Of a stretch of 64,000 nt of DNA, positions 27,084-29,325 are shown one piece after another. The stretch spans positions 1 to 64,000 of the forward strand of contig NZ_VSLZ01000001.1 in the NCBI RefSeq assembly GCF_010747475.1, in the 5' to 3' direction. Within the stretch, counting starts at the first letter, position 1. Every line of letters starts with the position of its first letter. The translations under genes and the position numbers were made by a program. The notes beneath the pieces are model-generated. The model did not search any database and was not told the origin of the DNA. It saw only the letters and a program-made list of their open reading frames with translations. Source of the DNA: Halorussus sp. MSC15.2. Its GTDB lineage: Archaea; Halobacteriota; Halobacteria; Halobacteriales; Haladaptataceae.

Positions 27084-27761
27084 ATGACCATCGAAGACCG
27101 CGGGGACGCCAAACTCCTCACCCACGCGCTCGCACAGGACACCCTCTCGAAACTTCGGGACGTAGAGACCGAGCAGGTCGGCTTCCGGAAGGGTCTCGTC
27201 AAACTCGGCCGCATCTGCGGCTACGAAATCATCGACGGCGCGATGGAGACCGAGTACGTCTCTATCGAGACGCCGCTGACCCAGACGACCGGCGAACGCG
27301 TCAAAGGACTCGACGACGTGGTCATCGTCAACGTCCTCCGCGCGGCGACTCCCTTCGTGGAGGGACTGCTCAAGGCGTTCCCCCGCGCCAAACAGGGCGT
27401 CATCAGCGCGGGCCGCGACGAGGAGGCCGGGCGCGGCGAGGACGGCACCTTCCCCATCACCATCGACTACGTGAAACTCCCGGAGATTCAGGAGAAAGAC
27501 ACCGTCATCGTCGCCGACCCGATGCTCGCTACCGGTTCGACGATGTGCGCGGTCCTCGACGAGGTGCTGAACGAGCAACCGAATCCCGAGGACCTGTTCG
27601 TCCTCTCGGCGGTCAGCGCGCCCGAGGGCCTGCTCCGCGTCGGCGACGAGTTCGACACGGCCGACCTGCTGACGGTCGCCATCGACGATAGACTCAACGA
27701 CGAGGGGTTCATCGTGCCCGGACTCGGCGACGCCGGCGACCGGGCGTTCCGGACGAAGTAA
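27084..27761 (+). CDS. upp: Uracil phosphoribosyltransferase
   Basis: This 225-residue enzyme makes UMP from uracil and PRPP in pyrimidine salvage. The PRPP-binding loop [19 protein letters not shown] and the flexible [14 protein letters not shown] segment are clear, and the uracil-binding end [16 protein letters not shown] is intact. The length is normal for archaeal Upp. The ATG at 27084 follows a GAATACGGATAGAG leader. Its stop lies only 11 bases from the truncated usp fragment on the opposite strand. Confidence 0.95.
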
Positions 27762-27767
27762 GCGGTT

Positions 27768-27847
27768 CCGCCCTACAACCGGAACACCCGCGACGCCAGC
27801 GACCCGCCGCCCTTTCGCGCCATAATCACGGTCCCCTCGGCGCGACG
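27768..27847. repeat. 80-bp direct repeat, copy A (end of truncated usp)
   Basis: These 80 bases are identical to 28472-28551, offset by 704 bases and in the same orientation. The block covers the last 24 codons of a usp reading frame, its TAG and five bases beyond. Outside the block the two copies diverge: about 70% similarity on one side and none on the other. Such a sharply bounded identical tract suggests recent recombination or gene conversion. Confidence 0.85.
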
Positions 27848-27931
27848 TTCGACTTCCCGTGGGGCCGAACCGATGACTCGCCGTCGAATCGTGTCCGTTC
27901 GGGTCGCGCCGAGGACCCTGACGCCGTGGCG
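27773..27931 (-). pseudogene. Truncated universal stress protein paralogue (C-terminal fragment)
   Basis: The minus strand encodes 52 residues starting RHGVRVLGATRTDTIRRRVIG and ending with the same RAEGTVIMARKGGGSLASR tail as the intact UspA at 28477-29325. The beginning has substitutions (DTIRRRVIGSAPREVE against GALRRRIVGSIPREVG), so it is a paralogue, not a copy. An in-frame TAG (27932-27934) and AT-rich foreign sequence replace its upstream part. It is a remnant of a second usp gene, once in tandem. Confidence 0.8.
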
Positions 27932-28205
27932 CTAGGACTACAAAATAGATGTAGGTAAATTTACAGTCTTGGAGGGATTATTGTACCCTGAGATTGGATG
28001 CACTTTAAACATGGTAAAAAGAATCGCAGATAGGGCTATGGTTATCTTATCTTCTGGTGTAGCACTATACCTCTCGTACGAGATTGCTAACAACAGTGTA
28101 ACCCAGCTATTACTTGCAATAATACTTGTGGTAGTTTTCTCGGTATTTGTAAAATATATAAAGGTCCTTGCAGCCAAGGTGACTAATTTATAGTGTGGTA
28201 TGTAG
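27932..28205. other. AT-rich insert between the usp fragment and intact usp
   Basis: This stretch is strikingly AT-rich beside the surrounding DNA of about 65% GC, with runs such as GGTAAATTTACAG and GTAAAATATATAAAGG. It begins abruptly at the truncated end of the usp fragment and holds a 60-codon plus-strand ORF. No inverted terminal repeats or transposase are visible. It looks like acquired DNA, possibly viral, or the last piece of a larger element that was deleted. Confidence 0.65.
28011..28193 (+). CDS. 60-residue two-TM protein in the AT-rich insert
   Basis: The ATG at 28011 opens a frame for 60 residues: a basic start (MVKRIADRAMV), two TM helices (ILSSGVALYLSYEI and LLLAIILVVVFSVFVKYI) and a basic end (KVLAAKVTNL). 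Codons end in A or T, unlike every neighbour, and its acidic residues are few, which is unusual for a haloarchaeon but common in small viral or plasmid membrane proteins. A TTG 42 bases upstream with a GGAGGG nearby could give a longer form. The function is unknown. Confidence 0.5.
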   Translation: MVKRIADRAMVILSSGVALYLSYEIANNSVTQLLLAIILVVVFSVFVKYIKVLAAKVTNL

Positions 28206-28281
28206 GAAATAGGCCGATAGCCGACTTCAAGAGCGACCTACTGGCTCTGTTCTCAGTACTAGCGGTCCGACGTAGTCGGTA

Positions 28282-28476
28282 TCAGTTTCGACCTTCACGA
28301 CGTTTTCGAAGTTCGTGGAGAATTCTCACTGCATCTGCCGACTCATCTGATTCGACGTGCAGTTCGGCTAGCACGTCACCGAGACGCTTGTCGCTGTTTG
28401 ACCGCTCGCGTCGAACTCGACTATCTACCCCATCGACTGTCTCCTTGCTCCGAATCGGAAAAGCCGTGTTCCCGCC
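28282..28476 (-). other. Open frame without a start directly after usp
   Basis: Beginning with the codon after the usp TAG and in the same frame, 64 codons remain open to a TGA at 28282-28284. They give a charged, helical stretch (SDKRLGDVLAELHVESDESA and VRILHELRKRREGRN). There is no ATG or GTG at its beginning. It reads like the C-terminal remnant of another gene fused up to usp by the same rearrangement, but it might be chance. It lies in the 270-base segment between the AT-rich insert and usp, which otherwise holds nothing recognisable. Confidence 0.3.
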
Positions 28477-28551
28477 CTACAACCGGAACACCCGCGACGC
28501 CAGCGACCCGCCGCCCTTTCGCGCCATAATCACGGTCCCCTCGGCGCGACG
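28472..28551. repeat. 80-bp direct repeat, copy B (end of intact usp)
   Basis: This is the partner of 27768-27847, identical over 80 bases. It covers the last 24 codons of the intact universal stress protein gene, the TAG (28477-28479) and five following bases. Together the copies bracket 704 bases of unrelated sequence, of which about 270 are AT-rich. Confidence 0.85.
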
Positions 28552-29325
28552 CCCGACCTCCCGCGGGATTGAACCTACGATGCGCCGCCGGAGTGCGCCG
28601 GTCCGAGTCGCACCGAGGACCGTCACGTTCCGCGACTTCGAGGCCGAGACGATTTCGTCCGCGACCTCGCCCTCCCGAACCTCGGTCTCGACCGCGACCT
28701 CCGAGAGCGAGTCGGCGGTGCGAGAGAGCAGGTCGCGGGCCGCCGACTCGTCGTCCGGCGACGCGACCACCCGCAGGAGGTCCACGCGAGCGTCGTTGGA
28801 GACCGCGATTGCCCGCGCCACGGCGGCGGCGAGTCCGGCGTGGGGACTCTCGGCGACCGGCAGGAGGACGGACTCGACCTCCCCGGCGAGCGCGCCGATT
28901 TTCTCCACCAGCACGTCGCAGTCGGCCCGGCGCAGGATGCGGTCCACGTTGGTCCCGAGGACCGCGTTCTCCCGCGTCCGCTCCTGCCAACCGAGCAGTA
29001 GGCTGTCGCAGTCGCGTTCGGCGACCGCCGCGAGGACGCCTCTCGATACCGACGAGGCGACGAAGAGTTCCCCGGAGACCGTGACGCCGGTGCCGGAGGC
29101 GACCGACACCGCCCGGTCGAGCAGCGCTCGGCGCTCGCCGCCGAACTCGCGGGCGATGACCTCGTCGGTGAACAGTGCGAACGGCGACTCCTGTGGCGTG
29201 ACGACGACGCCGACGACGAACACCTCGCCGCCTCGGTCGCGGGCCACGTCCACCGCGGTCCGGACCAACTGCTCGGCGTGGTCGGGGTTGCCGACGGCGA
29301 CGGCGATGCGGTAGTCGTCCGCCAT
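28477..29325 (-). CDS. Double-domain universal stress protein (UspA family)
   Basis: This 282-residue protein has two Usp folds in tandem. The first (MADDYRIAVAVGNPDHAEQLVRTA) runs to about residue 140, ending with LLLGWQERTRENAVLGTNVDRIL; the second runs from about 150 (VESVLLPVAESPHAGLAAAV) to the end. The nucleotide-binding GxxG-type loop is approximated by LGATRTGALRRRIVGSIPREV in the second domain. It is a cytoplasmic stress or regulatory protein that binds ATP or another nucleotide. The ATG at 29325 begins the first strand. The 3' end is duplicated 704 bases away. Confidence 0.85.
   Translation of the reverse strand: MADDYRIAVAVGNPDHAEQLVRTAVDVARDRGGEVFVVGVVVTPQESPFALFTDEVIAREFGGERRALLDRAVSVASGTGVTVSGELFVASSVSRGVLAAVAERDCDSLLLGWQERTRENAVLGTNVDRILRRADCDVLVEKIGALAGEVESVLLPVAESPHAGLAAAVARAIAVSNDARVDLLRVVASPDDESAARDLLSRTADSLSEVAVETEVREGEVADEIVSASKSRNVTVLGATRTGALRRRIVGSIPREVGRRAEGTVIMARKGGGSLASRVFRL

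Follow-up and report, generated by a model that had tools for sequence, protein, structure and literature searches.

The interval between upp and usp in the 64,000-nucleotide stretch analyzed here (the window), which comes from a haloarchaeon with a genome of 4.41 Mb in 25 contigs (G000), contains two exact copies of an 80-bp repeat, a truncated and divergent piece of usp and an AT-rich insert. With roughly even confidence, we read the locus as a recombination scar without a function of its own, the product of a stepwise history that would have ended, in the closest relative (G004), with loss of the interval by recombination between the repeats. A preliminary description of the sequence had proposed a rearrangement scar at this place; that proposal is supported, as are its truncated, diverged usp, its AT-rich DNA and its homogenized ends.

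The upp-usp Interval Is Flanked by a Perfect 80-bp Repeat

The interval is preceded by a zinc-ribbon-like gene (+) and upp (+) and followed by usp (−), a DUF7569 gene (+) and a putative peptidase-like gene (−), in that order. The features of the locus are as follows.

Left of upp, + strand: zinc-ribbon-like gene (Pfam score below the cut-off)
27084–27761, + strand: upp, uracil phosphoribosyltransferase, the left neighbor (TIGR01091, E 8e-72)
27762–27772: 11-bp spacer GCGGTTCCGCC, from the upp stop to the left usp fragment (identical to the G004 upp-usp spacer)
27768–27847: left copy of the 80-bp perfect repeat (sequence identity)
27773–27943, − strand: usp' pseudogene derived from the 3' part of a divergent usp, right end approximate (tblastn E 1e-18, codon comparisons, placement test)
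27944–28301: insert with no clear relatives and approximate edges, of which the left portion, up to ~28208, is AT-rich (composition, DNA searches)
28011–28193, + strand: 60-codon hydrophobic ORF, putative membrane protein (reading of the translation)
28285–28433, − strand: antitoxin-like relic with start codon, in-frame TAG and frame change (DNA homology; profile E 0.028 alone)
28302–28476: upp-usp interval DNA of the resident type (homology to G005, z 12.3, and to G016, z 10.3)
28472–28551: right copy of the 80-bp perfect repeat (sequence identity)
28477–29325, − strand: intact usp, 282 aa, two Usp-domain stretches (PF00582, E 4e-24)
Beyond usp, + strand: DUF7569 gene
Beyond the DUF7569 gene, − strand: putative peptidase-like gene (named by reading)

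A scan with the window usp protein returned eight named loci, from four Halorussus species, one Halobacteriales MAG and three more distant haloarchaea, with the best match among them in H. aquaticus XZYJ18 at 97% identity. For the comparison within the genus, 5–8 kb around upp was fetched from 17 other genomes and usp copies were located by tblastn at E 1e-8; in the fetched regions upp was present in all 17 and usp in 16.

The two repeat copies are identical at 80 of 80 bases. Both edges are sharp, the first mismatch on either side lying at offset −6 or +75 relative to the usp stop, and the repeat comprises the last 75 bases of usp plus five bases past its stop codon. The earlier claim that the last 80 bases of usp are repeated exactly was therefore correct as to the identity and slightly off as to the extent. 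Past the repeat, 53 of the adjoining 76 sites agree (0.70), and this abrupt change from 80/80 to 53/76 supports the earlier suggestion that the ends had been homogenized. Within the same 75 bp of usp, the longest identical run in 136 pairs drawn from 17 orthologues of the genus, a set that takes in the window's intact usp and that of G004, is only 34, which points to recombination and not conservation as the cause of the 80-bp identity. A whole-genome search found nothing similar to the two copies elsewhere in G000.

The Left Copy Ends a Decaying Fragment of a Divergent usp

Judged by its sequence, the left fragment derives from a divergent usp orthologue and is decaying. Its frame is open for 52 codons (53 in the preliminary description) and then meets an in-frame TAG, followed two codons later by another; alignable usp sequence reaches ~27943, for a fragment of ~171 bp. 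At the two TAG sites GAG is found in 7 and 10 of the 17 usp orthologues, respectively. The ratio of changes at codon positions 1 and 2 to those at position 3, summed over the 17 orthologues, is 0.97 for the fragment, as compared with 0.59–0.82 for each orthologue against the other 16. Together with the two TAG codons, this ratio indicates decay.

The source of the fragment was probably another lineage of the genus. Over the 96-bp diverged zone it matches G002 at 0.79, G014 at 0.78 and G005 at 0.76, as against 0.62 for the window's own usp. When a 90-bp zone was placed on the usp tree, the position as sister to the window usp alone was rejected (AU p 0.005), and with it the fragment as a recent duplicate of that gene. 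The best place was with G014, G005, G008 and G010, without significance against most alternatives: positions with G002 or with the larger window/G004/G002/G007 group were not rejected, and neither was that as sister to the window usp plus G004 by the AU test (p 0.127), although bootstrap and ELW weights exclude the latter.

The preliminary description had seen in the fragment the remains of an ancient tandem usp paralogue that lost its 5' part when DNA entered. That the fragment is truncated and divergent stands, and it does adjoin usp and lie in register with it. No full second usp, however, was found in any of the 17 same-genus genomes over the 5–8 kb fetched around upp, in which the search at E 1e-8 gave 0/17, and the fragment falls within the orthologue diversity of the genus, nearest to the four genomes named above with the same reservation as to significance. 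A tandem origin thus seems improbable.

The Insert Is a Composite

The 300-base windows of lowest GC content (taken in 100-base steps) start at 27901 and 28001, at 0.42 GC; no other in the 64 kb falls below 0.47. No DNA relative of this AT-rich DNA was found in 27 other genomes of the family (searched with 27924–28300) or in 391 other sampled genomes of the order (searched with 27938–28215). The region 28302–28476 is, by contrast, homologous to the upp-usp intervals of G005 (z 12.3) and G016 (z 10.3), with 0/200 dinucleotide shuffles reaching either score, and had no match in the other eight intervals of at least 60 bp (best z 1.6). For 27941–28200 there was no convincing match among the ten relatives' intervals; a z of 3.8 between the AT-rich part and the 71-bp spacer of G003 was taken as chance, as 2 of 200 shuffles reach it and it came from one of ten intervals tested. 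The earlier description of the insert as a whole as foreign AT-rich DNA is consequently not supported; it reads as a composite, of which the left part is AT-rich and without relatives in the genomes searched and the right part is interval DNA shared with relatives and holds the antitoxin-like relic.

On the minus strand this relic begins with a start like that of the G005 frame, meets an in-frame TAG and then proceeds in another frame to an antitoxin-like C terminus. It scores E 0.028 against the antitoxin profile, and a genome-wide profile search at 0.001 does not list it; given this weak score, its antitoxin-like identity draws on the DNA homology to the two genomes. No PIN toxin gene was recognized among the frames of the window's interval.

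The 60-codon ORF gave no NCBIfam or Pfam match (a longer reading of the frame gave only UcrQ at E 0.069), no match in plasmids, phages or viral contigs, and it did not align locally with the small membrane gene that G002 has at this place. One weak match, of 38% over 39 aa, was obtained in 292 other sampled genomes of the order, and the ORF may represent an as yet unnamed group of small membrane proteins in haloarchaea. The matching sequence is a small ORF beside a putative purD-like gene in G093 (L062). A 10-bp near repeat that flanks the AT-rich block (27949 and 28200, 9/10) was judged to be a probable chance match.

We also considered an assembly artefact, in which two versions from a polyploid or mixed sample were merged. 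An estimated contamination of 3.7% and a short repeat with both junction types would suit such an origin, but the locus lies inside a 1.38-Mb contig and neither the fragment nor the AT-rich block is found elsewhere in the G000 assembly, and we regard an artefact as very improbable.

The upp-usp Gap Varies within the Genus

usp adjoins upp in 16 of the 17 same-genus genomes, G001 being without usp there, and the content of the gap is variable, as expected of an insertion-tolerant gap between convergent genes. Seven genomes have a bare spacer of 11–71 bp (G003, G004, G006, G008, G009, G014, and G017), whereas five (G001, G010, G011, G012, and G015) carry an antitoxin-like gene and a PIN-domain toxin gene, modules which we take to be of the VapBC kind. 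A short antitoxin-like frame alone is found in two (G005 and G016), a different small membrane-type gene in a further two (G002 and G007), and two other genes, one with GCS2 similarity, in G013. The toxin gene is intact in G001 (PF01850, E 4e-17), split over two frames in G010, G012, and G015 and mostly deleted in G011. In G001 (L032, 1969–2561) the intact antitoxin-like gene and the PIN-domain toxin directly follow upp, and usp is missing from its usual place. The gap of G011 also holds a putative lipoprotein-like protein, and in G012 (L043) the toxin-antitoxin pair is separated from usp by a 296-codon ORF made up of repeats rich in glutamine, glycine and arginine.

The antitoxin-like frame of G016 (L047) is closed, at 48–56 aa, and that of G005 (L036) has no stop inside the interval and runs opposite upp, with an open frame of 151 aa; neither has a toxin beside it, and both may be orphan antitoxins after toxin loss. 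The C-terminal part of the antitoxin is common in the order, being found in 79 of 293 sampled genomes.

The preliminary description had proposed to look in relatives for an empty site, a full second usp, a larger element or an integrase-bearing version, and would have taken the same arrangement in relatives, as a sign of an old stable structure, as counting against its reading. No full second usp was present in the fetched regions, no integrase-bearing element was recognized, and no relative has the window's arrangement, the closest one, G004, having a collapsed or empty version of it.

The Closest Relative Has the Structure Expected of Repeat Collapse

In the upp-usp tree the window and G004 are sisters (100/100) and stand next to G002 plus G007 (89/94). 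G004 has the structure upp-GCGGTTCCGCC-usp, with a spacer of 11 bp, and when the window is collapsed on its repeat, which takes out a unit of 704 bp, the two agree at 96.2% over 1206 bp, with no gap and the same 11-bp spacer. Had an ancestor resembling the window undergone a crossover between its repeats, the structure of G004 would be the product. G005 lies in the neighboring clade and G016 outside both, with modest support (81/84); the usp tree instead puts G016 nearest to the window and G004 (support 37). With either tree, these positions make inheritance the simplest account of the antitoxin-like interval shared by G016, G005, and the window, and from the places of G005 and G016 in the upp-usp tree, vertical inheritance with loss in G004 is the simpler reading. 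Of the 32 differences between the window and G004, 11 fall in the final 120 bp of usp (0.0022 for this segment by itself), but the clustering was given no weight, as 83 of 1000 shuffles have some 120-bp segment of equal density.

From these observations we infer the steps of scar formation, their order and their mechanism. In the ancestor of the window and G004, a decaying antitoxin-like gene would have stood between upp and usp, an arrangement close to that of today's G005 and G016. A composite piece, in which AT-rich DNA was joined to the 3' part of a divergent usp of the Halorussus type, would then have been inserted a few bases after upp, one candidate means being recombination with DNA of another species together with an illegitimate joint. 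Subsequently, the usp' fragment would have decayed, and thereafter gene conversion or a crossover between it and usp would have rendered 80 bp identical. Finally, in G004, a crossover between the repeat copies would have removed all that lay between them, the antitoxin relic included. In favor of this history we count the contrast in identity at the repeat edge, the match of G004 to the collapsed window, the homology of the G005 and G016 intervals, the AU rejection of a recent duplicate and the decay of the fragment.

The arrangement of G004 could, however, be ancestral, in which case the window would represent a gained state. Circular DNA, consisting of an antitoxin-usp' piece from another species and AT-rich DNA, would have integrated into an upp-11 bp-usp ancestor through a single homologous crossover at the 3' end of usp, so that this end of the gene was duplicated. 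Such a gain predicts the observed order of native left junction, usp', AT-rich DNA, antitoxin interval and usp, and G004 has the predicted empty site. On the other hand, it requires that the antitoxin was lost and later returned to its former position, and that the donor piece began, by coincidence, close to the start of the interval. Moreover, a fragment of decayed appearance nevertheless matches usp exactly over its last 80 bp, and no related plasmid or viral DNA was found. We consider a gain in the window strain rather unlikely.

No Mobile Element Is Found at the Locus

No working mobile element was found. An integrase gene was recognized neither by eye in the interval sequences and translations nor by Pfam on selected ORFs, interval DNA had no match in plasmids and phages, and the usp protein had none in viral contigs. 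These searches lend no support to the earlier suggestion that the 3' end of usp is a recombination or integration hot spot. A small element, now reduced, that used this 3' end as an attachment site would leave a repeat at a gene end with the intact gene on one side, and direct repeats with a one-copy empty site in a relative; the repeat is seen here and the one-copy site in G004. No recombinase, however, was recognized by eye in the frames of 27762–28476, and Pfam was blank for the 60-codon ORF; a second usp 3' end bounds the interval in none of the 16 same-genus genomes with usp beside upp, and the fragment runs ~96 bp past the identity as diverged usp. We regard an attachment site as highly unlikely. 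We give hardly any credence to a further scheme, in which the usp 3' end would be a recurrent homologous docking site, with small integrase-less DNAs bearing a usp' tail entering and leaving the upp-usp gap via the 75–80-bp gene end and carrying the 60-codon ORF or antitoxin genes.

Discussion

The locus shares features with several known systems. As in segments flanked by direct repeats, which are gained by single crossover or lost by recombination between the repeats, two direct repeats surround unique DNA and G004 has one copy; the window differs in that its repeat is a mosaic, identical for 80 bp and then 70% alike. As in gene conversion and concerted evolution between gene copies, there is a sharp island of identity between diverged copies, although one partner is here a pseudogene fragment of ~171 bp. 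Finally, as at sites of antitoxin and PIN toxin modules, the window's interval has an antitoxin-like relic where G001 has an intact pair, but the relic is broken and no toxin was recognized.

Gene conversion works very efficiently in Haloferax volcanii, which is polyploid (PMC8223754), and frequent recombination has been reported across haloarchaeal species and genera (PMC4500145). Homogenized ends and a foreign usp' fragment fit these reports. Against the preferred history, of insertion, decay, homogenization and loss in G004, the conversion tracts between genome copies given in the first source, at least 600 bp, are far longer than 80 bp; shorter ones are mentioned there for bacterial antigenic variation and concerted evolution (PMC8223754). 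The possible ancestral state of G004, the AU test over 90 bp that leaves the fragment beside the window usp and G004, the weak profile score of the relic, the modest support for the place of G016 and the failure to find a donor of the fragment likewise count against it. A limited literature search found nothing on this locus in print among the matches listed.

Collectively, the comparisons with relatives suggest ordinary debris left by recombination in a stretch that gains and loses genes. The scar itself matters little; it is a compact example of the mosaicism of haloarchaeal genomes, in which the nearest relative looks like the predicted product of repeat collapse, and it lies in a gap between two conserved genes in which, within a single genus, an antitoxin/PIN-toxin pair resides and has decayed more than once.
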